Of a stretch of DNA of 40,371 bases, positions 11,849 through 29,749 are shown one piece after another. The stretch comes from Alcanivorax sp. S71-1-4. Its GTDB lineage: Bacteria > Pseudomonadota > Gammaproteobacteria > Pseudomonadales > Alcanivoracaceae. A program made the translations under genes and the position numbers. Numbering within the stretch: the first letter of the stretch is position 1; each line of letters starts with the position of its first letter. The stretch covers positions 1 to 40,371 of the forward strand of contig NZ_AQOR01000034.1 of NCBI RefSeq assembly GCF_009846755.1, in the 5' to 3' direction. The notes below the pieces were generated by a model, which was not told where the DNA came from, did no database searches, and was given only the letters and a program-made list of their open reading frames with translations.

Positions 11849-13495
11849 TCAATCCCAGCTCCACCGCTGCGACTTGCCACCGTGGAACGTCCACAAGTGC
11901 GCACGCTGGCCATTGCCCCACAACGGGTCTTTGATATCCAGCGCCCGGTGCGGTGCGTGCGCTGGCCTGAAGGAATTGCTCGCGCCCCGCGTCCAGACCT
12001 GATTGTCACCATTGTGGCAAGGCCAGAGCACCACACGCGTACCTTCGCTGGTGCCGCCGCCGGACACATCCGCACATTTGTCCGGCGCGGATTTCGCCCG
12101 CAGACGGCCTTGTGGATCGTGCCACCAGAGCTGGCTGTCGGCACCGTGGCAACTCCAGTGATGGATTTCCGTGCCATCTGCCGTGCTGCGGTCTTCCAGA
12201 TCCAGGCAACGGCCATGATCATTGCGCAGCTTGCGCCAGACCGGCTGGGCCGGCGGTTCAGGCGGTTGCACGACCGGATAATTCACCGGCAACCATTCCC
12301 CTTCGCTGGCCAGGTCGCTGTAGTTCAGCCATACCACCGTGGCGCCGGCGGAATCCCGTGCCTCTTTCAGTTTCTGGTTGCTGAAACCGTTGCGTGGCAC
12401 CTGGAACTGATACGTGCTGCCGAACTCCGCCGTGCAGGTTGCTGCAGCCTGCGCCCAGGGCACCGACGCAGCAGTCACAGACCAGCTGCCATCGTCCGCC
12501 TGGCAGGCGGCGCGGCGTGACTGGCCGCAGTTCACGTCGTTGAAGCGGCCGTCGGCACGCTGCTCGGCACAGTGTTCGTTGCCTCCCGAATTATTCGGTT
12601 CATTCTCGCCCCAGCTCCATACAGCCGCGGCAAGACGGCTGTCGAACGGCACCAGATGATCCAGGCCCACAATACCCAGATTGCATTGCATCGCCTCGGC
12701 CATGCGCTGCGGCGTCGTCGGTGGAGGCGGGTTGCCGAACGCGGCGCTCAGGTTGGTGCCGTCTTCATAAATCCGTACAAGATTGGTTTGCACGAACTGC
12801 TGCGTCCTCCCGCTGATGGTGCACAACGGATAAGACGCGAAGCTGTCGTTGCCAGTGGGGAAGCCGTAATTGAACACCGTCTGCGCCCAACGGGTGGTGC
12901 TGCAATCACCGCCGACCAACAACACTTGCTTGCCATCATTCACCATATCGGCACGGGTGATGTCCATCGGCAACGTGCGGCAGGAACCCGGCCGATAAAT
13001 GCGATCGCCCAGGTGCAGATCAAGAATGTCGACAGCACGGTCATGTTCGCTGTCCACATGCTCCTCGATGTAAATCAGAATGACCTGATCGTTGTTTTCG
13101 GGCCGCTCAAGCCAGGTGGCAATTTCCTTGATACCGTCCTCGAAATGACGGTCAAAGGTGGAGCAGCCTGTGTGGTCGCTGGTGCCATGGCACAGGATCA
13201 GTTTGCTGTAGGCCCAGTGCACATCCAGCTCCAGCGCGCGAACACCGAGATCCAGCTGGTCCACCACGCTGACCTGATGATTCGGGTCCCAGTAGCTGCC
13301 GAGATTCTGATACGCCACCGAGTTGTAGCTGTTGTGCGTGTACTGGAAGCTGGTCTGCCCCAGCGGCTCACCCATTTCCAGCGTACGCTGATGTGCAAGC
13401 GCCTCATAGTTCCAGCTATTGCGAAAATCCTCCACCGGCGTGGCGAAGGCTGCCGTGCTCAACAGGCACAGCATGGGAAAGGTCCGTCTGCTCAT
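11849..13495 (-). CDS. Secreted PI-PLC-X phosphodiesterase with C-type-lectin-like and ricin-B domains
   Basis: This 548-residue exported protein has a signal peptide cut near residue 19. Residues about 45-300 form a PLC-X barrel of the calcium-dependent type: YTHNSY (His54-Asn55), RALELDVHW (Glu89, Asp91), LCHG (His103) and VILIYIEEHV. All match the catalytic and metal-binding positions of eukaryote-type PLC. Residues about 295-400 look like a C-type-lectin-like domain (VWSWGENEPNNSGGNEHC). Residues about 415-548 are a ricin-B trefoil with QxW elements SQLWW, NQVWT and SQRWSW. A Pro-rich linker (VQPPEPPAQP) joins the last two. It likely cleaves a phosphoinositol or glycerophospho lipid outside the cell while binding glycans. 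The start ATG has a weak CAGGGG upstream. Confidence 0.9.
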   Translation of the reverse strand: MSRRTFPMLCLLSTAAFATPVEDFRNSWNYEALAHQRTLEMGEPLGQTSFQYTHNSYNSVAYQNLGSYWDPNHQVSVVDQLDLGVRALELDVHWAYSKLILCHGTSDHTGCSTFDRHFEDGIKEIATWLERPENNDQVILIYIEEHVDSEHDRAVDILDLHLGDRIYRPGSCRTLPMDITRADMVNDGKQVLLVGGDCSTTRWAQTVFNYGFPTGNDSFASYPLCTISGRTQQFVQTNLVRIYEDGTNLSAAFGNPPPPTTPQRMAEAMQCNLGIVGLDHLVPFDSRLAAAVWSWGENEPNNSGGNEHCAEQRADGRFNDVNCGQSRRAACQADDGSWSVTAASVPWAQAAATCTAEFGSTYQFQVPRNGFSNQKLKEARDSAGATVVWLNYSDLASEGEWLPVNYPVVQPPEPPAQPVWRKLRNDHGRCLDLEDRSTADGTEIHHWSCHGADSQLWWHDPQGRLRAKSAPDKCADVSGGGTSEGTRVVLWPCHNGDNQVWTRGASNSFRPAHAPHRALDIKDPLWGNGQRAHLWTFHGGKSQRWSWD

Positions 13496-16478: not shown

Positions 16479-17510
16479 ATGCAGGACAATACCATCCTGG
16501 ATCTCGCCTATGACATCTCGCGCATGACCAGCGAGAAAGTCGGCGCCATTGAAACCATCATGCAGACCACCCGCCTCCTGGCGCTGAATGCCCGCATAGA
16601 AGCTGCGCGGGCAGGCACGGCCGGTGCAGCCTTCAGTGTGGTGGCGGAGGAAATTGCCAGTGTATCGGCCCAGATCAACAGCATAGCGTCAGAGTTTCGG
16701 ACAGGTGTTGCGAGCCATACCCGGCAAATCGAAGAAGCCGGGAAAAGCATGCTGATTGATTTCCGCGGCCAGAGGCTGATGGATCTGGCGTTGAACGCCA
16801 TCGAGATCATTGACCGAAATCTGTACGAGCGGTCTTGCGATGTGAGGTGGTGGGCTACGGACAGCGCCGTGGTCGCCGCCGCGGAAGCGCCTGCAGAGCG
16901 CGCCCTGCAGCAGCACGCCGGGGCCCGTCTGGCCACCATCCTGCGCTCCTATACCGTTTACCTTGATCTCTGGATAGTGGACGTTCAGGGACGCGTCATC
17001 AGCACAGGCAGGCCAGACCGATACCCTGACGCGATCGGAATGGATGTGTCCGGCACTGACTGGTTCAACGCTGCTCTGTCGACGCGTACCGGGGATGACT
17101 TCGCCGTGGCGGACGTGAGCATCAATGCTGCGCTTCACGACGCACCGGTTGCTACCTATGCAACGGCCATCAGGGCTGCCGGCCGAACCGATGGCAAACC
17201 GACAGGCGTGCTGGGGATATTCTTTGATTGGGCACCACAGGCCCAGGCAGTGATGAGTTCAGTTCTGCTGGCCGCCGACAACCAGAGCCAGGCTTACATC
17301 CTCGATGCCAAAGCGCGCGTTATCGCCGGCTCGCATCTAGAGCACGCGTTATACACGCCATACCCTTTGCGCACCGAGGAGAAAAGCAGCGGGTTCTATA
17401 TCAACGATCAGAGCCTCGTTGCATTTGCGCTGACGCCAGGCTACGAGACGTACGCCGGCATGGGCTGGTACGGCGTGATTGAAACGCCGGTCAGAGGCCA
17501 GGCTGGTTAG
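16479..17510 (+). CDS. Cytosolic MCP-signalling / Cache-domain protein
   Basis: This 343-residue protein has no signal peptide or membrane helix. Residues about 15-90 match one arm of a methyl-accepting chemotaxis signalling hairpin, with the hallmark LLALNARIEAARAG and FSVVAEEI. A linker with DVRWWATDSAVV (about 121-132) leads to a Cache-like sensor domain (about 150-335) containing YTVYLDLWIVDVQGRV, GDDFAVADVSIN, GVLGIFFDWAPQ and TPGYETYAGMGWYGVI. The signalling part precedes the sensor, the reverse of classical receptors, and it is too short for a full hairpin. It may bind a soluble metabolite and feed a chemotaxis-like pathway. GAGGAG lies six bases before the ATG. Its stop codon overlaps that of the convergent gene by 4 bases. 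Confidence 0.87.
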   Translation: MQDNTILDLAYDISRMTSEKVGAIETIMQTTRLLALNARIEAARAGTAGAAFSVVAEEIASVSAQINSIASEFRTGVASHTRQIEEAGKSMLIDFRGQRLMDLALNAIEIIDRNLYERSCDVRWWATDSAVVAAAEAPAERALQQHAGARLATILRSYTVYLDLWIVDVQGRVISTGRPDRYPDAIGMDVSGTDWFNAALSTRTGDDFAVADVSINAALHDAPVATYATAIRAAGRTDGKPTGVLGIFFDWAPQAQAVMSSVLLAADNQSQAYILDAKARVIAGSHLEHALYTPYPLRTEEKSSGFYINDQSLVAFALTPGYETYAGMGWYGVIETPVRGQAG

Positions 17511-18343
17511 GGGTCATCTGCATCTTCGGGGTAATTGAAGTAGAAGCTGGTGCCGTCGCTGCGTCGTATCAGTACGGAAGCTTTCATCGTTGTCCGAAAG
17601 GATTTTAGTGCCAGATCATCACCTTCCTGAGCACCTACATTGTATCCATTAACAGAAACGATAATATCACCAGGTTTTGCTCCTGTAGCCTCCAGCATCT
17701 GAGGGGAAAATCGCTCACCAATCACATACCCAGCCGCTGAGCCTTCACTCACAGGATAAATATCATAAGTAGAAAATATACGCATTCTTTCGCGAATATC
17801 CTTCGTGTCGCTGAGAATGTCCCCCCCCCTGACTCCGGCGCTAACAACGCTCGGCTCATCTGCATCTTCACCAGAAAGCGGCGCCATATAAACCCTGAAA
17901 TCCCCCTCTCTACCACTTATTACGACATGATCAGAATGAATGTTCTTGATGTAGTATTCATCAATTACAACCTGCCCAATACCGTATCGATAAGCGCCGT
18001 ATCCATCGACGAGAACCACAGCAGAAGCTATATCTTTATCGTGTGTTTCGAACAAAGCAATGGCAGAAAAGTCATATCTCGCAGGAGAATTATGAATTCT
18101 ATCTTTCTCAGGTCCATCTTCATGAAATCTTACTTCTGACACGCCAATTGATTCCAAATTAACATTACTCTCCTCCATAAATTCAACTTCCTCGATGTCC
18201 GATTTTATCTCCCCCCCCGCATTGAGGCTCTTGGTTAGCAGCGATGTATTTCCCCCTTCCAGCATCGCTTGCCGGAACCAAAAAAGAGAAGAAACCACTA
18301 ACAGCAGCATAATCATCGAACCGAAAAATGCTTTTTTTCTCAT
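17507..18343 (-). CDS. Orphan GspC-like protein (type II secretion HR + PDZ)
   Basis: This 278-residue protein has one N-terminal membrane anchor (FGSMIMLLLVVSSLFWF, about 8-24), an acidic linker, an HR-like domain (about 92-160: IALFETHDKDIASAVVLVDG, YGIGQVV, HSDHVVISG) and a C-terminal PDZ domain (about 200-270: GYVIGERFSPQMLEATGAK, then PGDIIVSVNGYNVG). This is the layout of GspC, which links the inner-membrane secretion platform to the secretin and helps choose substrates. No other gsp genes are nearby. The ATG at 18343 was chosen because the earlier start is TTG. The coding strand has G runs of 9 and 8 bases. It is divergent from the FKBP/DsbC operon, and a similar gene lies at 28940-29749. 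Confidence 0.75.
   Translation of the reverse strand: MRKKAFFGSMIMLLLVVSSLFWFRQAMLEGGNTSLLTKSLNAGGEIKSDIEEVEFMEESNVNLESIGVSEVRFHEDGPEKDRIHNSPARYDFSAIALFETHDKDIASAVVLVDGYGAYRYGIGQVVIDEYYIKNIHSDHVVISGREGDFRVYMAPLSGEDADEPSVVSAGVRGGDILSDTKDIRERMRIFSTYDIYPVSEGSAAGYVIGERFSPQMLEATGAKPGDIIVSVNGYNVGAQEGDDLALKSFRTTMKASVLIRRSDGTSFYFNYPEDADDP
17821..17829. repeat. C9 homopolymer inside the GspC-like gene
   Basis: Nine C on the plus strand are G9 on the coding strand and encode part of AGVRGGDIL. A run this long is prone to slippage. It is in frame in this sequence. Confidence 0.9.
18211..18218. repeat. C8 homopolymer inside the GspC-like gene
   Basis: Eight C on the plus strand are G8 on the coding strand, near residue 43 just after the membrane anchor (LNAGGEIKSD). 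A slip here would remove both the HR and PDZ domains. Confidence 0.9.
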
Positions 18344-18493
18344 CACCCACACCAAGGAATCAAATTAATATCAGACACCAGACTCAACCATAGTAACACT
18401 CTAAAATGCAAATGTAGCCAAAGGTAACTTTCATAACTTATGCTCAACCACGCGTCAAAGACCAGGTGATATGCCACGCTGCAATCACCAAAA

Positions 18494-18512
18494 TGATCTC
18501 AAATTGAAATTA
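18494..18512. promoter_or_regulatory. Operator-like TGATCTCA-N3-TGAAATTA
   Basis: This imperfect inverted repeat in the divergent GspC-like/FKBP intergenic region closely resembles the perfect repeat TGATTTCA-N3-TGAAATCA at 20169-20187 before the PraB-like gene, with the same 3-base spacer. It lies 30 bases before the FKBP ATG. Confidence 0.4.
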
Positions 18513-18541
18513 GAACAATATACTGAAAGAGAGGACAAGAA

Positions 18542-19255
18542 ATGAAGCACTTAACTATAATTTTTTCCATACTTTCTATTGCTGGTTGTGCATCAACCGC
18601 TCCAAAAGAAATCGATGTCACCTCCATTGGAGATGTGGCTTCCTACTCCTTCGGCGTAGAAGCAGGCAGCACAGTTAAAGCTGGCCTTGAAGATAAGTAC
18701 ATCGACAAAGATCTATTCCTCCTAGGAATAAGTGATGCAATAAAATCGAATGAACTCCGATACAACTTAACTGATGAGGAAATCTCAGCAGCACGTACTG
18801 AGCATGAAAGCTGGGCTGCCAACAAAAAAGAACAAGATGCTCTCATTGCAGGAGAGAAAAATGCTCAGGAAGGCGCAACCTTCATTGAATCTTACAGCTC
18901 CCGAGGAAATGTCCATCAGCTAGACAGTGGCATTTTGTATACCATATTGGATAGCGGAAGTGGCACCTCACACCCTACTGTAGATAATCACGTAAAGGTT
19001 CACTACGAAGGCCGATTTATTGATGGAACGGTCTTTGACAGCTCCATCGAGAGGGAAGAACCTGTCTCAGTTGATCTCGAGCGAGTGATCGAAGGCTGGC
19101 GGGAAGCCATCACACATATGTCAGAGGGCGAAAAATGGGAGGTGGTTATTCCCTCCCGATTAGCGTACGGCTCCCAAGGTCGCCCACCAGCGATTGAGCC
19201 AAACCAGACTTTAATCTTCCAGATTGAGTTGATTGAAATTTCAGATGAAGGGTGA
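18542..19255 (+). CDS. FKBP-type peptidyl-prolyl isomerase lipoprotein
   Basis: This 237-residue protein has a short lipoprotein signal peptide (SIAGC), an N-terminal helical dimerisation domain of the FkpA/Mip type (about 30-110) and an FKBP domain (about 140-235). The core motifs VKVHYEGRFIDGTVFDSS, VIEGWREAITHM and IPSRLAYGSQG are intact, so isomerase activity is expected. It acts in the periplasm as a prolyl isomerase and chaperone. AGAGAGGA lies upstream of the ATG. The gene is first of a two-gene operon with the DsbC-like gene (5 bases apart) and divergent from the GspC-like gene. Its context suggests service to a particular exported client. Confidence 0.93.
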   Translation: MKHLTIIFSILSIAGCASTAPKEIDVTSIGDVASYSFGVEAGSTVKAGLEDKYIDKDLFLLGISDAIKSNELRYNLTDEEISAARTEHESWAANKKEQDALIAGEKNAQEGATFIESYSSRGNVHQLDSGILYTILDSGSGTSHPTVDNHVKVHYEGRFIDGTVFDSSIEREEPVSVDLERVIEGWREAITHMSEGEKWEVVIPSRLAYGSQGRPPAIEPNQTLIFQIELIEISDEG

Positions 19256-19260
19256 TTCCG

Positions 19261-19992
19261 ATGTCCATATCCAAAGGCATACTGTTAACCCTGCTTTCTT
19301 TATGCGCGCTTTACTCTCATGCCGATGGCACGGCAAGCAACTCGCAACTAATTGAAAAAATTGAAAATTTATACCCAAATATGTCTGTAACAAACATCCG
19401 CTCGACGCCTTTGGGCAACATATTGGAAGTGGAAATAAATGGCAGCCAAATAATCTACTCATCCCAGAATGGAGATTATATATTTACCGGTCAGTTGGTA
19501 GATATCTCTAAAGGTACAAGTAACAATCTGACGGAGCAGCGCCAGCAGGAGATCCGTGGCGCCTTGTTGTCAGATATGAATGCTCGTACCTTTATTACCT
19601 TTCCGTCGCAGGGCGAATCCATCGGTGAAATCTTTGTATTTACCGACACCAGTTGCGCCTACTGTCAAAACTTCCACAAGCAGATTGAAGCTATCAATGA
19701 AAGAGGGATTACTGTCCATTATATAGCTTTTCCGCGTAGCGGTCTGAACACCCCCGCAGCCCAACTAATGGAACAGGTGTGGTGTTCGCCGGATCCCAGA
19801 GCAGCGCTGACAGAAGCCAAACTTAATGGCAGGGTCAGCCAAAATATCATACCCTGCCAGGCCCCAGTTGCTGAACAGTTTAAAGCCGGCCTTAAGATGG
19901 GCGTACATGGCACGCCGTATATCTTGACTGAGAGTGGCGAAAATCTAGGAGGCTACCTTTCTACAGAAGATCTAGTTTCTCATTTCAAATAG
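19261..19992 (+). CDS. DsbC-like periplasmic disulfide isomerase
   Basis: This 243-residue exported protein has a signal peptide of about 21 residues, an N-terminal dimerisation region (about 28-95) and a thioredoxin-like domain with active site SCAYC (Cys132, Cys135) and cis-Pro motif GTPYI (Pro219). A second cysteine pair (175 and 199) matches the structural disulfide of DsbC. DsbC rearranges wrong disulfide bonds and is kept reduced by DsbD. The ATG at 19261 with AAGGGTG upstream was preferred over GTG at 19252. The CAYC dipeptide differs from the usual CGYC and may shift redox potential. A PraB-like protein with six cysteines follows 450 bases on and is a plausible client. Confidence 0.9.
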   Translation: MSISKGILLTLLSLCALYSHADGTASNSQLIEKIENLYPNMSVTNIRSTPLGNILEVEINGSQIIYSSQNGDYIFTGQLVDISKGTSNNLTEQRQQEIRGALLSDMNARTFITFPSQGESIGEIFVFTDTSCAYCQNFHKQIEAINERGITVHYIAFPRSGLNTPAAQLMEQVWCSPDPRAALTEAKLNGRVSQNIIPCQAPVAEQFKAGLKMGVHGTPYILTESGENLGGYLSTEDLVSHFK

Positions 19993-19998
19993 AAAATA

Positions 19999-20033
19999 TC
20001 CTATAAGCAGGACTTGAGGTCCTGCTTATAGGA
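19999..20033 (+). terminator. 15-bp perfect inverted repeat after the DsbC-like gene
   Basis: TCCTATAAGCAGGAC pairs perfectly with GTCCTGCTTATAGGA over a 5-base loop, starting six bases after the stop codon. No clear T run follows, but the stem is strong enough to end or stabilise the FKBP/DsbC transcript. Confidence 0.7.
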
Positions 20034-20135
20034 AATTTCAGCACTAAAGTAACAACCCCGTTCCATGCCGATCGCGCCCGCACAGCAGAGCCAGTATTTG
20101 TAAAACAAAACACAACTCAATTACAACAATCAATT

Positions 20136-20187
20136 TGATCTCAACTGTAATTTTTTTAAATGAAAACCTGATTTCAAACTGAAATCA
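20136..20187. promoter_or_regulatory. Operator-like repeats TGATCTCA and TGATTTCA-N3-TGAAATCA
   Basis: A perfect 8-bp inverted repeat with 3-base spacer lies at 20169-20187. A half site TGATCTCAA lies at 20136-20144. The same half site, TGATCTCAA, starts the repeat before the FKBP gene at 18494. A shared regulator for the PraB-like gene and the folding operon is therefore possible. Confidence 0.4.
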
Positions 20188-20379
20188 AAAATACAAGCCA
20201 ATCCCGATAAACCATGCAAAAATCCCGGAAAAACATTGAAGTACATGAACATCTGCCATGGAAGTAAAATCAAAATATCATAATGCACCCACTTATAGTA
20301 GACGATTGTTTTACCGATCAGAAAAACACAATTTACCAATACCGGGTTGTTCCCAAAGCCAGTAAGCATTCATTCTTCA

Positions 20380-20407
20380 TCTCGCGCTCGCATTTCGCGG
20401 CGCGAGA
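20380..20407 (+). other. Leader hairpin of the PraB-like gene
   Basis: An 8-bp stem, TCTCGCGC with GCGCGAGA, and a 12-base loop lies 23 bases before the Shine-Dalgarno. In a very long AT-rich leader it could protect the 5' end of an abundant mRNA. Confidence 0.4.
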
Positions 20408-20440
20408 ATCACAACAAACAAACGATTAATGGAGATAATC

Positions 20441-20980
20441 ATGAAAGCGATTTCTAAAGGTCTTCTGGGTGCAGCTCTCCTGGCCACATTCGGTATCAGC
20501 CAAGCTAGCCCGATCTACTACACCGTAAACGGTGGTGCTACTCAGCAACTGGACGCAGCAGCAATTACCGATACCTTCAGCGGTTCCACTGTTCTGACTT
20601 CTGGTATTTGCAGCCTGAACTGTACTCTGTCTGCCACCGGCACTTTGAGCGACGATGGCACGAACGTAAGCCTCGCTGTTACCAGCGCTAGCGTTACCGG
20701 CGGCTTCCTGTGCGGTGGCGTGACACTGTCTGGCTTCCCTTGGACCGACAGTATTGCGCACGCTAGCGTACCAACCGGCAACCCTCTGCCGGACGTTGAC
20801 TTCACCCTGACGGGCGTTAACGTCAACTCCCTGTGCGGCAGCTGCAGCGATGAGATCGACGTAACTTTCCGCTCCACAGGTGGCGGCCAGTTCGTATTTG
20901 CCGATACCATTGAGCCGAACGGTTCCTGCTCTGTAACGGGCAACCTGACCAGCAGCAACTACTATACTGCATGGCACTAA
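20441..20980 (+). CDS. PraB-like secreted protein, paralog A
   Basis: This 179-residue exported protein has a signal peptide cut after ISQAS (about residue 22) and an all-beta mature part with six cysteines in the pattern SGICSLNC, FLCGG, LCGSC, GSCSVTG. The TGTLSDDG, VSLAVTSASVTGG and SGFPW blocks recall the PraA/PraB 'activator of alkane oxidation' family of Pseudomonas, secreted proteins that help growth on alkanes and surface attachment. That link is by eye. GGAGAT lies upstream of the ATG at 20441; an ATG four codons earlier is less likely. Codons are strongly biased (GGT, CTG, GTA, AAC), which suggests high expression. Paralogs lie at 34185, 35273 and 37030, and a distant one at 28062. 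Confidence 0.8.
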   Translation: MKAISKGLLGAALLATFGISQASPIYYTVNGGATQQLDAAAITDTFSGSTVLTSGICSLNCTLSATGTLSDDGTNVSLAVTSASVTGGFLCGGVTLSGFPWTDSIAHASVPTGNPLPDVDFTLTGVNVNSLCGSCSDEIDVTFRSTGGGQFVFADTIEPNGSCSVTGNLTSSNYYTAWH

Positions 20981-21024
20981 GACTTAGTTCCCGGTTCATA
21001 ATATTCGGGAACTGAGATGAGAAG

Positions 21025-21058
21025 CAAAGAGGCGCCCGAAAGGTCGCCTCTTTGTTTT
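21025..21058 (+). terminator. Rho-independent terminator of PraB-like A
   Basis: A 10-bp stem, CAAAGAGGCG with CGCCTCTTTG, is followed by TTTT. A second hairpin, AGTTCCCG with CGGGAACT (20986-21014), precedes it. Confidence 0.9.
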
Positions 21059-21128
21059 AACCTAAATTGATCGAAGCCTAATTGTAAACATCCCTGCTTT
21101 AGTTGCACCGTTGAGTAGAGATTTCCGT

Positions 21129-22120
21129 CTATTGGTGTTTCGCCAAGTATTCCCATGGTGTGAGGTCTTGCAATGAATCGTGGGGACGCTCGTCGTTGTA
21201 TTCGGCCATCCGCGATTCGGTCAGTTACCGAACCTCATTGAGATTCCGGAATGACATACATATTGAGGATCCCGTCCCGGTAAGTCCGATTAAAGCGTTC
21301 CACTTAGGATTTCTGAGTCGACCCGACTTGATAAACTCCAGCAAGATACCGTGTTATTCGGCCCAGTCTGCCAGGGCCATGGAGATAAACTCCGGGCCTT
21401 TATCCATTCGCAACCTGGCGGGATAGCCGCTAGGAAATGATACATTCCAGAGCCCGAATAAGCCTTGGGGCCGGTAAATTCAGGTCGATCTCGATGGCCA
21501 GCGCCTCCCGGTTAAAATCATCGACCACATTGAACTTCCGAAACGGTCGGCCACAGAACAGGCTGCCGCTCATGAAGTCCATGGAGCAGCAGTGGTTGCC
21601 GGTGGCGGGAACAGCCAATGGCTCAGGATGTCTCGTCGGAAGCCTCTTCTTGCCCCGTCGCCACTTGCTCAAGGTAAGGGCGCTGTACAAACAGTGTACC
21701 CGCTTGTGATTCCATCCATGACCCCAGCGCCGCAGCACTTTGAACAGTTACTGAATCCGTAGGCGAGATAGCGTTAAGCTGCGATCTGAAGCGCTGCAAT
21801 CACTGGTTCATCCCGGGAAGTATACGGCCGATACCGGTACACAGAGCCACTGATGCCAGCGATTCGACAGGCTCTGCGGATGCTGACGCCGTGAGCATGC
21901 TTAAGTCGGCGGTTTTCCTCTTCAAGCTCCTTGAGGCGCTTCACATCAGAAGCCCCATGCCGCCGTACTTAGCTTTCCAGCTGTAGTAGGTCGCATCAGA
22001 GCTGCCGTACCCCCGGCAGACTTCCTTGACCAGACGACCGCCCTCGACCTCCTTCAGGATATTGACGATCTGTGACTCGCTGTACCGTGATTTCTTTATG
22101 TCGTTCTCCGCTAGCGTCAT
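21129..22120 (-). mobile_element. Decayed IS3-family element
   Basis: On the minus strand an orfA begins at 22120 (MTLAENDIKKSRYSESQIV), with HTH text up to KYGGM. The text then runs in shifted frames through DVKRLKELEEENRRLK directly into HGVSIRRACRIAGISGSVYR, which normally starts orfB, so about 100 bases of the orfA end and orfB start are missing. The integrase core SMDFMSGSLFCGRPFRKFNV and VVDDFNREALAIEIDL is readable at 21430-21738. It ends by stop, and the tail YNDERPHDSLQDLTPWEYLA is in another frame, ending at 21129. Several frameshifts make it non-functional. No terminal repeats or target duplication could be defined. Confidence 0.85.
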
Positions 22121-22184
22121 TGTAGGCCGGAGAACTCTAATTACGCACACATTGCTTGTAGGGAATGGTTACAATCTACAGATC

Positions 22185-22212
22185 AAAAAAAAGAGCCTCA
22201 TATCGAGGCTCT
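22185..22212 (-). terminator. Rho-independent terminator of the FadL/Ig-like operon
   Basis: On the minus strand AGAGCCTC pairs with GAGGCTCT over a 5-base loop and is followed by a run of eight T. It lies 24 bases after the stop codon of the Ig-like lipoprotein. Confidence 0.92.
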
Positions 22213-22235
22213 CTCATGAAAGTCAAGAAACAATA

Positions 22236-25200
22236 TTACTTTATAATCTCAGAAAAATAATCAACCCGACTTCCTTCAGAAGGAATTTTTATCGAAGTAT
22301 AAGCTAAAGGTGCCTCTAAATTGAACATGGCTGCGTACAACTTCAGGCCAAAACTGAATTCAATATCATTTGAGTTAAGCATGGAAATCTTCATCGTACC
22401 GTCATCATTAAATTCAACCTTACCCTCCAGTTCCAGCGTTATCGGAACACTGACCATATCATGATGGGTGGATGAAATACCCGGCACCCCCATAAGCGCC
22501 TCGCCAATCAAAGTAACCCGTTGCTGTAGGTCAATAGCATCAACATAGACTTCAACCTCTGTTGAAATATGTGGTTCACCATTAACGTCCTTGATTAGCG
22601 CAGTAATAGGTTTACTACGAGGACAGGTCGAACCTGAAAGAACGTCCTCAACGCAAAGCGGATCATCTTTAGCATATCTCATGCGCATAACTTGTGGACC
22701 TGAATCCAGGCCGAGAACACAGTTCCCGCCGTTGCAAGCCAGCATTGGAGCATGTATTAAAACTGCCGTAGACATAATTTGCCCTGGCCATATTTTCACC
22801 TCTACCCCGCCAAGAGTCTGATTGAACTCCCCAATTTCAGTAACCAAGTCACTGGTAAGGTATGTGAACTTAGATTCAGGGCACACCGATTTCTGATACG
22901 GGGGCATTGAAGAAATACCATTCTCAAAGGCACACCCAATAGACACCATTGGGACCATATATGGCCCAAAGGTAAACTCTCCACCGCCAAATAGCTTCGC
23001 ACTATTAGCGGGCGGAAGAACACCATCAGGATCGACACATCCTACATCACCCACGGCGCAACCATTAGGGTCCAAAGGCTGATTTTCTGCACCTTCTTCT
23101 TCAACCGTATATTTCAGATAAGCGTTTCTAAGGAAGTAATAGTCCGCCTGGTAATCTACGTCCTTATTACTATCATGAACCATGTTTGCATTCGTATCAG
23201 AGGAAGGGGCTTTCAGTATCTGAAGCACCTCATTTGACTCATCCGTGGCAACAAAGTACTGAGTCAAAGGCATCCCGCCACCATCTGGAGAGTTTGGATC
23301 TTGAAAAACGATATCCATAGTAAAGGGCGTCTGAACACTCAACTCGTGCAGTTGAGTTTGAATCGGCAACCCTGACTCATCACATATTGACGAAGTGCCG
23401 TCACATGAGGCAGAAGGTGAATGTCTATCGCCGTTAGAACCCAGCGTATAGCTATAATATTCACCCTCAACCCAAGGCTCTGATGGGTAAAAAGTGATCT
23501 TATTGCCATCGACACTAATATTACCTTCCACATTTCCCTGAGCAGCTCCACTAGCATCGACTCTATGGACCTGGAAAGACCCTCCGAGAGAAACACTTTG
23601 CGGATCTATATTCTTGGTGAATATTGCTACAATTGGTCTATTGCCCGGCAATTCTGGAAGAGGAAGAACATCATCCGGAAGCTTATGTGGCGTACTAAAT
23701 ATCGAGTTCCCGTCAGGCGTTTCTCCACGCCGATACTCTTCTGATAGATAGCCCTGGCAACGACCAGTAAATCCTTGTGACAAATCTATAGAGGATGTAT
23801 CTATAACGCACGGGAACCCAGGATAAACCGTCGTTAACATTGGCGAGCGCACGACTACACCAACCTCACCGCGGTATTCCTCTATAGGCGGAATGTTTGC
23901 ACGGCTCCGCTCGAACTCATCTGCAGTTGTAACAATAGCGGGAAGCTCAAATTGATAGACCGTATCTGAACTTGTGGCGTTGCCTGATAAATCACGGATA
24001 CCTTGCTTCAAAGTTAATGTATAAACATATGAAGCGACTGAGTTTATCGATTCCTGAACGCTAGCCTTGAAAGAGTTTTTGGGCTTTATAATTACTGACG
24101 ATCCTTTAGCAACAATGCTTGCTTCGACTGCAACACCGTTCTCCTCAAGGAGGATTAGATCTAGCGCAGATTTGGAATCTATCGGCTCATCAAACTGAAC
24201 TATCACAGGATCTGTGGTTCTGAACCCAGTCACATTGTCGCCAGGAATCCAGCTCTGGACTACCGGAGGCATGTTGTCTGCCACCGTCGTTGGTGGATTA
24301 TCCTGGTCTTCAAATGCCTTCATATAGAAGCTCAAGATACCGGCGGCACGTTCAGATCCAAGAACGTCTGGCTCCACAACACCAACTGCATTGATCACCA
24401 TACGACCATCTTCGACGATAGAAGTACCGACCAATTCAATATGCAGAAGATCTTGGGTGATCGCCCCGTTGGCTTGAGGTGCTTCTGTAGATACTGAGAC
24501 ATCCATGAAAAGGCGAACTTGACGCGGCGCATCGTCAGCATTGCTATACGGATTTGGAAGGAGATATCCGCTGGCGTCGGAGATAAAATCCATACGCACT
24601 TTTCCAGAATCGAATCCGGCTGGAACCGCACCATTGATGAGTACTTCAATGGATGCGCCTTCTATCAGAGATCCACGCTTTACTCGGAAGGGTGTAGCAT
24701 CAGGGAAGTTAGGCACAAATGCCAGTTCAGCGGCAACGATGCCGCTCGCCTGGGTAGCGGTTTCTTCTCCAAGAAGCAGTGATGCCATTGGCACAAGGTT
24801 AATTGGCATGCCCGTCAGCGGAGAAAGCTCGCCAGTGTCCGCCACATCCTGCACCATGGCAACTCTCTCGCCAGTCGTTGGCGAAGTGCTGTCTTGCGGC
24901 GTCACTTTAATACTGACGGCCAGTTCCCCTCCGGGATTACCAAAACCACCACCCGGCAATGAATCACCGTAGATGCTTGTTACAGCAGAGGTCATGTTAA
25001 GCGAATACTCGGCCCCGGGCGTCAGGTCTTCTACCGGGTCGATGGTCATGTAGTTGCCGCTAACGAGAAGATGGGCGTCAACCAGACCTTGCGGGCCAAT
25101 AAGCTGGACGGAGTCATTCGCTCCCTCACCATACTTTACTGAGCTACGCTCAAGAGGCTGACTGAATTGCACGCGGAAGCTTGAGAAGTCGAGAACTTGA

Positions 25201-25679
25201 TAATTCTCACCGTCCGGTATCATTCGGCTAATTTCGAAAGCATCTTCAGCCACCTGGCTCTTCGGTCCTTCATAAAGCCCTCGGGTGGTGAAGCGAAGAC
25301 TACGAGCCGGGGAAGCTCCTTTCTCAAGCGCAATTTCTGGGACTTGCACCAGATACTCTGTCCGCGGCTTAAGCTTTTTGTTTGGCGTAATGATCAAACC
25401 ACGCTTGCCATCCACCCATTCCATATCAAAATCGGAAACGATAGGCCCGCCCACTTCACGCAGCACTATGCCTGGCGAAGTCTCCATAACTGGGCTGGAG
25501 AAACGCAGGACCACCGGCGAAGGCACCGGCACCTGCTGCTGATTATCATCAGGGAAAGAGTACACCAGACTTTGCTTCCGGCTTTCCCAATCCTGCTGCT
25601 GTTCCGTCGCCACATCATCCTTGTCCCCACCACACGCGGCCAGGGAAACGATGCAGGCTGCCATGATTATTCTTTTCAT
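22236..25679 (-). CDS. Large Ig-like-domain (Big_5/SbsA) lipoprotein
   Basis: This 1147-residue lipoprotein has its lipobox at SLAAC, followed by GGDKDD. It shows several bacterial Ig-like modules: about 30-125 (QVPVPSPVVLRFSSPV ... RTEYLVQVP), about 150-250 (FRVQFSQPLE ... GAEYSLNM), about 465-585 (DPVIVQFDEPIDSKSAL) and about 690-780 (PIVAIFTKNIDPQSVSL). The later part has cysteine pairs and no family I can name. The ATG at 25679 has a perfect AGGAGG four bases upstream; an earlier in-frame start was rejected. It follows the FadL-like gene (59 bases apart) and shares its terminator. It may be a surface or periplasmic partner of that channel. Operons of a FadL-like channel with a second protein serve alkane uptake (aupAB) in Marinobacter; whether this is the same type is untested. 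Confidence 0.82.
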   Translation of the reverse strand: MKRIIMAACIVSLAACGGDKDDVATEQQQDWESRKQSLVYSFPDDNQQQVPVPSPVVLRFSSPVMETSPGIVLREVGGPIVSDFDMEWVDGKRGLIITPNKKLKPRTEYLVQVPEIALEKGASPARSLRFTTRGLYEGPKSQVAEDAFEISRMIPDGENYQVLDFSSFRVQFSQPLERSSVKYGEGANDSVQLIGPQGLVDAHLLVSGNYMTIDPVEDLTPGAEYSLNMTSAVTSIYGDSLPGGGFGNPGGELAVSIKVTPQDSTSPTTGERVAMVQDVADTGELSPLTGMPINLVPMASLLLGEETATQASGIVAAELAFVPNFPDATPFRVKRGSLIEGASIEVLINGAVPAGFDSGKVRMDFISDASGYLLPNPYSNADDAPRQVRLFMDVSVSTEAPQANGAITQDLLHIELVGTSIVEDGRMVINAVGVVEPDVLGSERAAGILSFYMKAFEDQDNPPTTVADNMPPVVQSWIPGDNVTGFRTTDPVIVQFDEPIDSKSALDLILLEENGVAVEASIVAKGSSVIIKPKNSFKASVQESINSVASYVYTLTLKQGIRDLSGNATSSDTVYQFELPAIVTTADEFERSRANIPPIEEYRGEVGVVVRSPMLTTVYPGFPCVIDTSSIDLSQGFTGRCQGYLSEEYRRGETPDGNSIFSTPHKLPDDVLPLPELPGNRPIVAIFTKNIDPQSVSLGGSFQVHRVDASGAAQGNVEGNISVDGNKITFYPSEPWVEGEYYSYTLGSNGDRHSPSASCDGTSSICDESGLPIQTQLHELSVQTPFTMDIVFQDPNSPDGGGMPLTQYFVATDESNEVLQILKAPSSDTNANMVHDSNKDVDYQADYYFLRNAYLKYTVEEEGAENQPLDPNGCAVGDVGCVDPDGVLPPANSAKLFGGGEFTFGPYMVPMVSIGCAFENGISSMPPYQKSVCPESKFTYLTSDLVTEIGEFNQTLGGVEVKIWPGQIMSTAVLIHAPMLACNGGNCVLGLDSGPQVMRMRYAKDDPLCVEDVLSGSTCPRSKPITALIKDVNGEPHISTEVEVYVDAIDLQQRVTLIGEALMGVPGISSTHHDMVSVPITLELEGKVEFNDDGTMKISMLNSNDIEFSFGLKLYAAMFNLEAPLAYTSIKIPSEGSRVDYFSEIIK

Positions 25680-25738
25680 GTTGCCTCCTGGTAAACCTCT
25701 ACTTAAACGCTCTTTCATATCCATAAAGAACGTCCGGC

Positions 25739-27043
25739 TCAGAATTTAAGCGTCACTGACGCGGCGAAGACATGTACTTCACCATCGGTTTCCACTTCAC
25801 CGTAGACGCCCGGCGGGGTCAGCGGATTGGTGGAGGTCAGCTCGTAAGTCTTGTTATCCAGTTGCTGATATTGGTAACCCAGATCCATGCGGACGGGGTA
25901 TGCCAGCAGCGGCATTTTTGGAATCACAGCGCTCATGCCCAGGCCCACTACCCAGCGGTCTGCATCCAGGTAGTTCACGTCCAGGCTGCGTTTGCCTTCG
26001 ATCGGGGTCTCTTCCCAGGCAACACCACCGGTGAAGGTGAAGTGATCGCCCGCCGGGATTTCCACACCGATGCGCGGGATGAAGATATCCTTGAAGTTGG
26101 CGTTGGCCTGATCCTTGATGGTGTCGTCACGCAGTTCGCGCTCCAGACGGGACCATGCCTGATATTCGCCGGTCACACCCAGTCGCCAGGTGCCGAAGTC
26201 ATACTTTACGCCGACCGTGGTGATTTCAGGCTGGAAGGAATCCAGGGTTTTGATGGCCAGATTCAGGCCTGGTGCCGGGATAGTGCCCGGAACAATCACA
26301 TTGGAGCTCACCTTGGTGCGGGTGTTGGAATAGGCGCGGTAGGAAATCGCAGTTTCCAGGTTGTCCATCCAGCAGCTGGCACGGCTACAGAAGGTTTCAC
26401 CCCAGTTGATGTTCACGCCCAGGATGGGGCGAAACTTGGGTGCAGCGGACACATTCAGGGATTCCTGGCTGGTCACGCCGCCCAGGGTGGAGCGCGTGTT
26501 CAGGGTGGCGTCGGCGTGCAGGGTCACACGCAGCGCGAAGCCCACATCAATACCGCGCCAGACGCTGGTGCCGGCACCGGCGGTCAGAAAGAGAGGCTGA
26601 CGGCCGTAGGTGAAGTACTGGCCGTAGTCCGACGTCTCGGAGGAAAATGCCATCATCTCCTGGGCAAATTTCTCAACACCGACCATCAGGCCGAAGTACA
26701 GCGGGTGTTCCAGCGTGGAGATAGAGCTGAGATCGGTCTTCAGGCCCAGCTGCAGTTGCTGCGACGGATCGTTCATGATGGTGGAGCCGTTCGCCTGCAG
26801 GTCGTGATCGGCGTGGAAGATGCCGCCAGTCAGTTCGCCGCGCGGGTCTTTCGCCAGGTTGGCCGGGTTGTAGTACACCGCCGAGATCTGGGAGTTGAAG
26901 ATCGACAACGCCTGGGCAGAAGCAATGTCGTTGGGTAGCAGGCCATAAGTGGACGGCGAGTTCCCCATGTTGGCGGACGCTGAACCGAAAGTAAGTAGCG
27001 CACAGCTGGCAACTGCAAGGGAGCCAAATGATTTGAGCTTCAT
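25739..27043 (-). CDS. OmpP1/FadL-family outer-membrane channel
   Basis: This 434-residue outer-membrane beta barrel has a signal peptide cut near SASA (about 24), the FadL-family N-terminal plug region with the NPA motif (VYYNPANLAKDP, about 57-68), and a C-terminal strand ending in Phe (VTLKF), the usual BAM signal. The family carries long-chain fatty acids, alkanes or aromatics across the outer membrane. AAGGAGA lies seven bases before the ATG. It is first in an operon with the Ig-like lipoprotein. Given the PraB-like proteins nearby, a hydrocarbon or fatty-acid substrate is likely, but this is inference. Confidence 0.93.
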   Translation of the reverse strand: MKLKSFGSLAVASCALLTFGSASANMGNSPSTYGLLPNDIASAQALSIFNSQISAVYYNPANLAKDPRGELTGGIFHADHDLQANGSTIMNDPSQQLQLGLKTDLSSISTLEHPLYFGLMVGVEKFAQEMMAFSSETSDYGQYFTYGRQPLFLTAGAGTSVWRGIDVGFALRVTLHADATLNTRSTLGGVTSQESLNVSAAPKFRPILGVNINWGETFCSRASCWMDNLETAISYRAYSNTRTKVSSNVIVPGTIPAPGLNLAIKTLDSFQPEITTVGVKYDFGTWRLGVTGEYQAWSRLERELRDDTIKDQANANFKDIFIPRIGVEIPAGDHFTFTGGVAWEETPIEGKRSLDVNYLDADRWVVGLGMSAVIPKMPLLAYPVRMDLGYQYQQLDNKTYELTSTNPLTPPGVYGEVETDGEVHVFAASVTLKF

Positions 27044-28061
27044 GCTATCTCCTTAGTTTTTATTCATATAAGGCACTCTGCGGAGTGCTTTAATCTGCTT
27101 ATCACGGGCCATCCTGAACCGAAGCTCAGCCGATTTATCCTTCAGCAGAAACGCATAACGACGCCCTGGAGCGCCTCATGCCGATCCGGTATTGATCCGG
27201 TCAATGGCAAGTCACCACCGTTTCAATAGAAGGATGATCACCGTCCTGCATTTATTTCCGGCACAATCGCTCTTGTATCAACCCCAATTCCTACGCGCAC
27301 AGGTCTCGGGCTGGCGATCATTTCCCTGTTCTGTCATGCCGGTGTAGCCAGTTATTCACATTGCATCTTATTGATTTATATAAAGAACAATGTGATTTAT
27401 CCATCACGTTTTGTGATGGAATTACCAGAAGGGTAGTCACTCAGTGTACAAACGAAAACAAACGAAAATGAAAAGCTGGTTTTCTCGATGCAACAGGTGG
27501 CGCCAAGTATATGGCGATGATATTTTTGTTTATATGGTATCAATTAAATATCATCCCATTCCGAAATGAATTGACGTTAAAATGACATCACTCAAAAGAC
27601 AGCATTCTGCCTGCGCACATGACCGGCATAACCACATCCGCTCATGCCTCAGGAAAACATATCAAAGCATATATAAAAGGCAGTAGCCATTTCGGGCCCA
27701 CCACACCAAGGCATCCCCAGGCTAGGGAGGGGCTCGTCAAATCTCGTCTTAAAGTAACCAATTCGCTTTACAGGTACATAGGGAGCGCCTCCAGCCGCTA
27801 CCAGGCAGCACGCTGCGTCCACAATTAGAATAAGCACAAAAAGCTTCTGAAAGAAGAAACTCCCAAAATAACAAGTCAAGATAATAACCGCAGCTTTAGC
27901 TATCCAATGTATCAAAAAGACCTTGGAATGGAATCATTCCTTTATTTTAAGGAAGCGCAGCATTTACCAATAAACCATTTAAAACCCCATAAAAACAAAA
28001 AACAATAATAAGGCGCATATTGCGCGACAGAAGCATTTAATACCATTCCAAGGAGACAAAC
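27044..28061. other. 1-kb intergenic region between FadL and PraB-like genes
   Basis: No convincing gene was found. An open frame on the minus strand (27649-27915) would encode two hydrophobic segments, but it starts with TTG and has no ribosome site. A GGAATG-N4-CATTCC inverted repeat lies at 27925-27940, upstream of the plus-strand gene at 28062. The rest is AT-rich promoter-like DNA. Confidence 0.5.
27400..27420. promoter_or_regulatory. Operator-like palindrome TCCATCAC-N5-GTGATGGA
   Basis: This perfect 8-bp inverted repeat with spacer GTTTT lies about 360 bases upstream of the FadL-like gene, in AT-rich DNA. Position and symmetry suggest a regulator site. The distance is long, so a different transcript is possible. 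Confidence 0.35.
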
Positions 28062-28880
28062 ATGAGCTTAAGGATAAAGCTGATCTTCGGCACTCTACTT
28101 GCCTGCCTGCTGAACATGACAGCCTGGCAAGCCAATGCGTCTTTTACCGTACACTACAAGCCGGACTTGTTCGGCGGCTGGCAGAGTATTCCCGGCGTCC
28201 CCCAGGAGCCCTTCCCCCTGTCATACCAGGAAGCTGTCCAGCGTGATTTCTACTTCATCTTTGACAGCTTCTACCCGATCAAGGGCAGTACTGCCTGGGC
28301 AGGTGACCTGGTGGACTTTTCATCTCCACTACTTGGATTGCGGTGCCGGCTACAGATCGGCGGCTACCTGTGGCAAGAAGGTAAGCAGCCCAAAGTGATG
28401 CATTTTACCGTCACGCATCACCGCATCGACAAGCCGTCTCCCCCTGGCTTCCCGCAACCCAGCCAGCTTTGCATGCAGCTGCCACCGGCCGTGGTGCTGG
28501 CCTTCAACAACGGCCTGCCCATTGGCGCGCCCTGGGCAGGTGCATGGACCACAGTCGCCACACCGGCCATGGTCAATGCCGGTGCATTTGCGAACATATT
28601 CAATAATGTTCAGGTGACAATGGCTGGCGCTAACTGCGCCGCAGCGCCAGGCAATGGAGGGCAGCTGCCTTATCAATACAATGAAAATCCGCCCGGCGTC
28701 CGGGCCACCATAGACCTGAACGGAATGATCATGCCGCCAGGTCCTGGCAACTGCAATATTTTTGGACGGCTATACTCAATCTGGGAAAAGGCTCAGATCT
28801 TTGACCCGAACCACACTCCGAGTGCGCCCAATCCAAGCCCGCTTTCCAGAGGCGTGATCGATGAGATCACAAATCCATAA
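28062..28880 (+). CDS. Exported protein, diverged PraB-like (paralog E)
   Basis: This 272-residue exported protein has a signal peptide cut near ANAS (about 27). I do not recognise it at first sight, but its C-terminal two thirds follow the same order of landmarks as the PraB-like proteins: LRCRLQIGGYLW, then TVTHHRI, then LCMQLP, a PW segment, FNNVQVTMAGANC, and finally GPGNCNIFGRLYS, which resembles NGSCSVTGNLTSSNYY. Four mature cysteines are kept. AAGGAGA lies upstream of the ATG. It converges on the second GspC-like gene, with a shared terminator hairpin. The homology is by eye and would need a profile search. Confidence 0.7.
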   Translation: MSLRIKLIFGTLLACLLNMTAWQANASFTVHYKPDLFGGWQSIPGVPQEPFPLSYQEAVQRDFYFIFDSFYPIKGSTAWAGDLVDFSSPLLGLRCRLQIGGYLWQEGKQPKVMHFTVTHHRIDKPSPPGFPQPSQLCMQLPPAVVLAFNNGLPIGAPWAGAWTTVATPAMVNAGAFANIFNNVQVTMAGANCAAAPGNGGQLPYQYNENPPGVRATIDLNGMIMPPGPGNCNIFGRLYSIWEKAQIFDPNHTPSAPNPSPLSRGVIDEITNP

Positions 28881-28896
28881 CTGAACAAAAGACGAG

Positions 28897-28922
28897 CCAG
28901 GGCACGTTTTCTCGTGCCCTGG
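28897..28922. terminator. Bidirectional terminator between PraB-like E and GspC-like 2
   Basis: A perfect 10-bp stem, CCAGGGCACG with CGTGCCCTGG, and a 6-base loop lies between convergent genes. Short T runs occur on both strands. Confidence 0.85.
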
Positions 28923-28939
28923 TTTGCCTGAGCCATGAA

Positions 28940-29749
28940 TCAACCGCCCTGCCTCTGTGCACCCAGGATGTCTTCTGGATAATAAATCACGAACTCTTCC
29001 CCATCACGGCTGATCACTATCGAAGCTTTCTGGGTAGTCTGGAATGAAATCCATGCAAGATAGTCGCTATTGTCTTCGCCTACCGGATAACCGTTGACTG
29101 AAACCAGCACATCACCGGGCCTCACACCTGTGTTTTTCGCGGCGTCCTCGGGAAATTTATCACCCACAATATACCCGGATGGCATTGAGTCACTGACGGG
29201 GTACAGATCAAAGTGCTTCAGAATGTTCTGCTTTTTCTGCTCGGCTTCACTCAGCGGCACACTGAGGACAGCCCTCTCATCCTCACTTTCGGGCAGCGCC
29301 GCAGATGCCGCGCTCAACGGTTCAAGATGGAATACCTCCATGCTTTCACCTTCTCTCACCAGTATCCTGTCCGGCAAAATGGCGGCCAATACTCTCGTCC
29401 GGTCTATCTGGTCCCCCACATGGTATCTGTATGCACCAATCTCAGGGTGCAGAACCACCGCCGACGCCCGGGCCTGATCGTAGGTCTGGAATAAGGCCAG
29501 GAGACGGAGCGGCGAGCCGGGCTTTGGTAGAGGGCTAGCCAGCTCAGGCAGGTTAGATGACGGTAATTTCGCGGCGGGTGCTTTTTCAACGAGAGGGAAT
29601 AAACTATCAGAAATTATGCTTTTCTCTTCATTATCAGGGGCCTCAGTAGCCCCTTCCCCTTTTCCCTCATCTGGATGCCTGTTTTCCAGCATCACAAATG
29701 AGACGAGAGACAGACAGAAGGCAATGATAACGGCACCCGATACCTTCAT
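28940..29749 (-). CDS. Orphan GspC-like protein 2 (HR + PDZ)
   Basis: This 269-residue paralog of the protein at 17507-18343 has an N-terminal anchor (AVIIAFCLSLVSFVML, about 6-21), an acidic and Pro-rich linker, an HR domain (about 82-145: LRLLALFQTYDQARASAVVL, YRYHVGDQI, LAAILPDRILVREGE) and a PDZ domain (about 190-262: SGYIVGDKFPEDAAKNTG, VRPGDVLVSVNGYPVG). These match GspC closely. No other secretion gene is nearby. Unlike its paralog it has no homopolymer runs. The ATG at 29749 has only a weak AGAG upstream. It converges on the PraB-like gene E, mirroring the first locus. Confidence 0.78.
   Translation of the reverse strand: MKVSGAVIIAFCLSLVSFVMLENRHPDEGKGEGATEAPDNEEKSIISDSLFPLVEKAPAAKLPSSNLPELASPLPKPGSPLRLLALFQTYDQARASAVVLHPEIGAYRYHVGDQIDRTRVLAAILPDRILVREGESMEVFHLEPLSAASAALPESEDERAVLSVPLSEAEQKKQNILKHFDLYPVSDSMPSGYIVGDKFPEDAAKNTGVRPGDVLVSVNGYPVGEDNSDYLAWISFQTTQKASIVISRDGEEFVIYYPEDILGAQRQGG

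Follow-up and report, generated by a model that had tools for sequence, protein, structure and literature searches.

What does a component of the type II secretion system (T2SS) do when its gene stands apart from the rest of the machine? The question is raised by a stretch of 40,371 nucleotides from Alcanivorax sp. S71-1-4 (NZ_AQOR01000034.1; hereafter the window, which makes up contig C28 in a genome of 4.18 Mb), in which two orphan gspC-like genes at 17507-18343 and 28940-29749 lie away from the genome's gspC-gspD locus, whose canonical gspC adjoins gspD on contig C25. GspC is a leading candidate for part of T2SS substrate choice (PMC12369372). Comparison across genomes revealed that orphan GspC follows PraB, a family of small, exported-looking, cysteine-containing proteins, rather than the AupA/AupB alkane-uptake pair that separates the two genes in the window. 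The orphan proteins themselves are best described as GspC paralogues and not equivalogs. We give an even chance to the reading in which such alternative subunits attach to the secretin of the housekeeping system and send out PraB-like proteins, already folded and disulfide-bonded, in support of growth on alkanes.

Orphan GspC genes and the company they keep

Neighbourhoods were compared in 38 stretches taken around GspC-like matches (a subset of those matches) and in 40 others that were for the most part flanks or surroundings of AupA genes, with GspC counted as canonical when GspD lay within 100 bp and neighbours counted within 10 kb. PraB lay near 20 of the 23 orphan rows, AupB near 21, AupA near 13, FKBP near 15 and DsbC near 14, whereas none of the 22 canonical rows had any of the five, and the stretches of the 23 orphan rows contained no GspD. 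The original prediction, which had paired orphan GspC-like proteins with PraB-like neighbours, thus passed the first of the two checks set for it, conservation of the neighbours in other genomes; it passed the second as well, since profiles and a model put the proteins in the GspC fold. It should be noted that one orphan row is a repeat (L147 of L050) and two are fragments (L043:6024 and L130:16155); L130 was chosen for its AupA and has no PraB near its orphan row, where the contig ends.

The arrangement is conserved as well as the content. At ten loci in two genera (the 17507 locus of the window, L040, L042, L043, L046, L048, L050, L052, L054 and L059) gspC is divergent from fkbp-dsbC-praB at a distance of 97-223 bp, and this order and orientation is kept between orphans that are only about 30-40% identical. 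The closest closed genome, G006, carries a protein 93% identical to the 28940 protein, and the cassette recurs in named relatives in Alcanivorax and Alloalcanivorax, although six named full-cassette loci (L148-L153) were taken to be loci already counted and add no new cases. A new case did come from an Alcanivorax metagenome-assembled genome (L159), with the order PraB, GspC, PraB, AupB, AupA, AupA. A contig scan with a single protein as query returned no match, and an alignment query gave 31 loci. When an alignment of the orphans was searched against 369 genomes of the class, seven matched at E<=1e-15, strongly only in the window's own; of the other six matches four were read, two being GspC beside GspD and two lacking GspC or GspD by hidden Markov model (HMM).

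Which neighbour travels with orphan GspC can be read from its distribution across genomes. Orphan GspC occurs in 17 of 57 genomes, seven of genus g1 and ten of g3 (in G024 as contig-end fragments only); in the remaining 40 the listing gave a single match of GspC size or none, apart from frames of protease size, and part of their contexts were read. PraB is found in 18 of the 57, namely all 17 orphan-bearing genomes and one of the 40 others (G033, a weaker match of 61.9 bits). AupA, by contrast, is present in all 18 genomes of the family covered by the AupA search, eight of which (G007, G010, G013, G018, G021, G023, G025 and G027) have neither orphan GspC nor PraB, and PraB is therefore favoured over AupAB as the partner. 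Stretches around aupAB in genera g2, g5 and g8 (L121-L125, L138-L140) likewise hold no GspC, PraB, FKBP or DsbC.

Assignment of the orphan proteins to the GspC family draws on profiles and on a structural model. The 28940 protein reaches 33.6 bits against Pfam T2SSC (PF11356; cut-off 27), and it and the canonical gspC product, on another contig, are the only two matches over the cut-off in the genome. Against TIGR01713 (GspC) the 28940 protein scores 46.5 bits and the 17507 protein 36.5 bits (E=3.9e-9); as both lie under the curated equivalog cut-off of 101.6 bits, they are filed as paralogues. A hydrophobic N-terminal stretch is visible in the orphan alignment rows, and the AlphaFold model of the 17507 protein (mean predicted local distance difference test score, pLDDT, 71.8) comprises a transmembrane (TM) helix (4-29), followed by a beta domain resembling HR and by a PDZ domain. 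In a Foldseek search with this model nothing matched at E 0.001 or better and the top rank was an RseP PDZ domain; further down, its HR domain matched that of GspC from enterotoxigenic Escherichia coli (ETEC; 3oss_C, rank 16, TMt 0.83, root-mean-square deviation 2.3, E 7.6e-3) and its PDZ domain that of EpsC (2i6v, rank 13, TMt 0.67). PDZ profile matches of the orphans are under the Pfam cut-offs, and OutC and EpsC are among the profile hits.

In ETEC GspC, HR residues Ala133 and Val141 make hydrophobic contacts with the N0 domain of GspD (PMC3169554). By eye, and with uncertain column mapping, the Val141-like column holds Val in the orphans of the FKBP-bearing type, and the Ala133-like column holds Phe in the orphans and in most canonical rows of the family. 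The W-LFG stretch that precedes the HR domain in canonical GspC is kept in the orphans of L044, L063 and L065. When 41 GspC-like proteins were placed in a tree, the orphans of the FKBP type grouped in one clade (100/100) together with L057, and all 19 orphan rows fall on one side of a branch supported at 55/48, several of them long-branched. Two separate recruitments of GspC were also considered; at 55/48, a single origin is neither shown nor rejected.

The island in Alcanivorax sp. S71-1-4

Between the two orphan gspC genes the order is fkbp, dsbC, praB1, aupB and aupA, with three more praB relatives at 34-38 kb. The features of the window are as follows.

17507-18355, minus strand: orphan GspC-like protein B (TM, HR, PDZ), start at 18343 (ATG) or 18355 (TTG); TIGR01713, model and fold search, orphan clade
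18494-18511, plus strand: weak copy of the site TGATATC-N4-TGATATC, 3 mismatches, between gspC-like B and fkbp; site scan
18542-19255, plus strand: FKBP prolyl isomerase with lipobox LSIAGC read from the sequence; FKBP_C 103 bits, FKBP_N 54 bits
19252-19992, plus strand: DsbC-like disulfide isomerase, the genome's second DsbC; DsbC_N 57.7 bits
20169-20186, plus strand: copy of TGATATC-N4-TGATATC, 2 mismatches, upstream of praB1; site scan
20429-20980, plus strand: PraB-family exported protein (praB1), 6 Cys, likely start 20441; NF041561/NF041562
22236-25724, minus strand: AupB-like lipoprotein of 1162 aa with Big_5 Ig-like domains; PF13205 125 bits, HMM, place after aupA
25739-27043, minus strand: AupA-like outer-membrane alkane uptake protein; NF041571
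28062-28880, plus strand: exported protein, tentatively a distant PraB relative, convergent with gspC-like A; hhalign
28940-29749, minus strand: orphan GspC-like protein A (TM, HR, PDZ); PF11356 and TIGR01713
34185-34742, minus strand: PraB-family protein, 6 Cys; HMM 185 bits (this row was in the HMM's building set)
35273-35815, minus strand: PraB-family protein, 4 Cys; NF041562 17.4 bits (own-genome search), HMM 182 bits
37018-37563, plus strand: PraB-family protein, 6 Cys; NF041562 24.9 bits, HMM 211 bits

The observation made from the DNA alone holds. Both GspC-like genes exist where they were placed, away from the gsp locus and with a helix, an HR or HR-like domain and a PDZ domain, although their family membership stands in fold and profile but falls short of the equivalog cut-offs, and for the 17507 protein of the Pfam cut-off too. 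The absence of other secretion genes agrees with the searches made, which found none among the 20 of 39 called open reading frames (ORFs) scanned with Pfam and no GspD by HMM among all window ORFs of at least 70 aa. The prolyl and disulfide isomerases of the first locus have clear Pfam matches, and the suggestion of dedicated foldases survives there (a second DsbC, at a type of locus whose PraB proteins mostly have 6-10 Cys); the 28940 locus has no adjacent foldase in this genome. Of the two small exported neighbours assigned to one family, that at 20441 is PraA/PraB-like and that at 28062 is plausible without being firm. The interpretation as a whole is partly supported, through the conserved PraB link and the foldases at one locus; what it overlooked is the AupA/AupB pair between the two loci, which makes alkane assimilation, and not a surface protein of some general kind, the biology in question.

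The praB1 product matches NF041561 and NF041562 at 34.4 and 32.1 bits (E 1.4e-8 and 7.9e-8), under their curated cut-offs of 150 and 120, and on these scores appears to be a homologue of PraA/PraB and not an equivalog. N-termini across the family look like signal peptides in the alignment. The praB1 model is confident (pLDDT 86.9) and all-beta; against the PDB it had no match at E<=0.001, so no function is read from the fold. Its weak best matches, at E 0.04-0.1, were led by DynF (6ubl, E 0.041) followed by LolA-like proteins, and include hydrophobe-handling folds (DynF, LolA). The 28062 protein matched no Pfam or NCBIfam family and is present in two of 390 genomes of the order; aligned with the PraB profile it gave E=2.2e-4 in hhalign at a probability of just 45%. 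It was considered as an ordinary PraB and rejected as such, for want of an HMM match and with weak profile support.

AupA of the window scores 535 bits over nearly the whole of NF041571, under its cut-off of 840, which is passed in 12 of the 390 genomes. NCBIfam gave no name to the following protein; the provisional name AupB reflects its position following aupA and its similarity to the AupB-like proteins found next to aupA at other loci. Full-length AupB rows at loci with GspC and PraB measure 1128-1259 aa and belong to the same two genera, and the other full-length rows measure 983-1120 aa except for one of 1241.

A DsbC outside the island, presumed to be the housekeeping one, is present in all 16 orphan-bearing genomes searched (of 17); in ten of them the island carries a further copy, and in G006 it carries two. 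In the window's genome the other DsbC match is on contig C5, and a third strong DsbC was not found there, perhaps owing to contig ends. Where a stretch contains DsbC, its PraB proteins carry 4-10 Cys, mostly 6 or 10; at loci without DsbC the range is 2-6, the lowest value coming from a short fragment. The L144 and L146 rows with 10 Cys duplicate genes already present in L048 and L054, and the DsbC of these loci falls beyond the ends of the L144 and L146 stretches. AupB, with 7-15 Cys in full-length rows, shows no such tracking of DsbC, and the idea that DsbC serves AupB was rejected on that ground.

Some further observations concern the surroundings of these genes. GC content is 57-67% up to 18 kb and only 35-54% beyond it (18000-40371), which gives the alkane region the look of an island gained from elsewhere. 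Transposase-like fragments are visible by eye at 21430-22150, between praB1 and aupB, and longer transposase-like ORFs occupy the same place in L040 and L050. A transposase gene, which we take to be of the RAYT (REP-associated tyrosine) type from reading its sequence, recurs near orphan gspC, for example at the following positions.

L042:11049-11738, L043:8413-9072, L048:9762-10451: RAYT-like genes
L054:9055-9750, L065:9458-10189, L068:10543-11274: RAYT-like genes, continued

A second fkbp-dsbC-RAYT set lies about 9 kb from GspC-A in G006 (L041:13532-15919). The window FKBP scores 113.8 against NCBIfam BamJ (curated cut-off 100) and misses both FKBP subfamily cut-offs. At 11849-13495 the window also encodes a secreted-looking protein that combines PI-PLC-X, C-type lectin and ricin-type lectin domains.

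A shared promoter site

A tandem site, TGATATC-N4-TGATATC, was first spotted by eye between gspC and fkbp. Across 26 cassette-type stretches it occurs, at up to two mismatches, ten times in the 25.6 kb upstream of gspC/fkbp, praB and aupA genes and twice in the other 471 kb. Five of the ten upstream sites are at gspC/fkbp and are in-sample, since the site was noticed there; the two at praB and three at aupA are not. Shuffled upstream stretches gave a mean of 0.06 and a maximum of one in 200 rounds, canonical T2SS stretches gave none in 380 kb, and ordinary aupAB stretches gave one upstream and one elsewhere. At up to three mismatches the contrast is weaker (19 in the 25.6 kb upstream and 21 in the 471 kb elsewhere). 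In a genome-wide scan six genomes held 3-12 matches each (both strands counted), with none for a reversed-pattern control. The regulator of the site was not found, and other sites lie near assorted genes. One copy stands upstream of an ordinary aupA (L124:11888) and some of those at other places (L202-L212) adjoin lipoproteins that are AupB-like by HMM (L203) or look like Big_5 proteins by eye (L209), which hints at a wider regulon.

A proposed exchangeable clamp and its rivals

In the mechanism that we favour, orphan GspC proteins would be alternative subunits for the cell's only T2SS. Each of the 16 orphan-bearing genomes searched has one GspL, and 15 have one GspD over the cut-off, the sixteenth having it split between contigs; the lower-scoring secretin matches resemble PilQ or Tad proteins. 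The N-terminal helix would anchor orphan GspC in the inner membrane with the rest reaching into the periplasm, where HR may dock on N0 of the single GspD, replacing normal GspC or mixed with it, and PDZ may recruit PraB-family proteins. These would cross the inner membrane by means of their signal peptides, be folded by the lipid-anchored FKBP, have their disulfides corrected by the island DsbC and presumably be exported to the surface or medium. Once outside, PraB could, like Pseudomonas PraA/PraB, help to handle or solubilise alkanes for the adjoining AupA/AupB. Rather more tentatively, at somewhat under even chance, the clamp may be exchangeable and substrate-specific: alkanes would switch on one regulon, marked by the shared promoter site, that provides another GspC and several disulfide-bonded PraB proteins along with two isomerases, the lipid-anchored one for prolyl bonds and the additional one for disulfides, such that the single housekeeping machine is retooled and an exported, alkane-solubilising protein layer feeds AupA/AupB.

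Published work points the same way. For EpsC and VesB, choice of the substrate through PDZ is established, the EpsC PDZ domain being needed in its entirety for this one known substrate (PMC12369372). In Marinobacter, an unidentified T2SS-secreted protein is essential for biofilm growth on alkanes (PMC5989066), and degradation of dodecane by Acinetobacter requires xcpR (from a reference title in PMC7477861). PraA and PraB are linked to alkanes with solubilising effects, a praA mutant being slow on hexadecane (PMC4542665).

Several points weigh against this mechanism. The stretches were scored with HMMs built from these same loci, and all positives come from two genera of one family and therefore represent few independent events. 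Two full-length orphans (L056 and L133) have neither PraB nor AupB near. The stretches read around aupAB in other families (L108-L120) contain no GspC, PraB, FKBP or DsbC, so that alkane uptake does not generally need them. The proteins themselves fall short of canonical GspC: both miss the equivalog cut-off, the 17507 protein reaches only 13.6 bits against Pfam T2SSC, and FKBP-type orphans lack the W-LFG stretch. Lastly, of the nine matches to the site at up to one mismatch in the window's genome (both strands counted) none is in the window, whose own copies are weak, with two and three mismatches.

According to the main rival, the GspC-like proteins no longer take part in type II secretion and serve instead as inner-membrane scaffolds of AupA-AupB, their HR or PDZ domain reaching through the periplasm to bind the Ig-like AupB. 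The proximity of AupB to 21 of the 23 orphan rows would fit such a role, as would the promoter site at aupA in three loci, the loss of W-LFG in FKBP-type orphans and the restriction of large AupB to the same two genera. It is weakened by the phyletic result, in which eight genomes of the family have AupA without orphan GspC, aupAB of other families has no GspC nearby and orphan GspC follows PraB instead; moreover, FKBP and DsbC sit with praB and not with aupAB, and we consider a scaffold unlikely. A clamp that does serve the T2SS could alternatively have the large Ig-like lipoprotein AupB as its cargo, delivered to the surface like pullulanase. AupB has Big_5 domains and a lipobox, the EpsC PDZ domain depends on the VesB Ig-fold, and for PulA and PelI domains of the Ig-like or Fn3 kind are important (PMC12369372). 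Nevertheless, Marinobacter AupB mostly fractionates with the inner membrane (PMC5989066), several large-AupB stretches (L131, L134-L136) lack GspC although their genomes have one elsewhere, and the Cys number of AupB is indifferent to DsbC, all of which leaves AupB as cargo decidedly unlikely. Lowest in our estimation, and improbable, is the proposal that nothing links the genes but their location in a mobile AT-rich island, where the GspC-like genes would be duplicates with no functional tie to PraB. The fall in GC content after 18 kb is in its favour, together with RAYT-like genes within 10 kb of 12 of the 23 orphan rows compared with one of the 22 canonical ones; persistence of order and orientation between such divergent orphans, and a shared promoter site far above shuffled expectation, speak against it.

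The preferred mechanism, of alternative GspC subunits on a shared machine, has partial precedents. In Pseudomonas aeruginosa, XphA is the GspC partner of the XphA/XqhA pair. This pair (PaQa) serves the Xcp system as an alternative GspC-GspD subunit; encoded outside the main xcp locus, it forms a hybrid with the main system and answers to the environment (PMC6567927). It differs in bringing its own secretin, XqhA, whereas here GspC comes alone, next to FKBP, DsbC and its putative cargo, in genomes that have a single GspD each. The GspC/EpsC/OutC clamp shares the TM helix, HR and PDZ domains, with model domains resembling 3oss_C and 2i6v; the orphans differ in not being beside gspD, in scoring under the equivalog cut-off and, in the FKBP type, in the missing W-LFG. 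Marinobacter AupA/AupB (PMC5989066) has the same order, aupA then aupB, and the same families by HMM, yet L108-L112 (a genus taken to be Marinobacter) have no GspC, PraB, FKBP or DsbC. Pseudomonas PraA/PraB are homologous by HMM and similarly small, exported-looking and cysteine-containing, but the proteins described here score far under the equivalog cut-offs and occur in several copies, some with 10 Cys; for the Pseudomonas cluster the available part of PMC4542665 names alkB, praA, praB and ompP1 and no GspC. Orphan GspC in Alcanivorax was not found in the literature titles or abstract openings searched. An alternative GspC-GspD subunit is already known, and what appears new, in that it did not show up in the literature searched, is a GspC standing on its own together with two foldases, a candidate cargo and a promoter site that they have in common.

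For the question of how the T2SS chooses its substrates, these loci provide natural GspC paralogues beside their probable cargo. Because GspL and GspD are single-copy in these genomes, removing or swapping one gene would test substrate choice directly. The PraB family, in turn, provides candidates for the T2SS-exported proteins that act in alkane growth.

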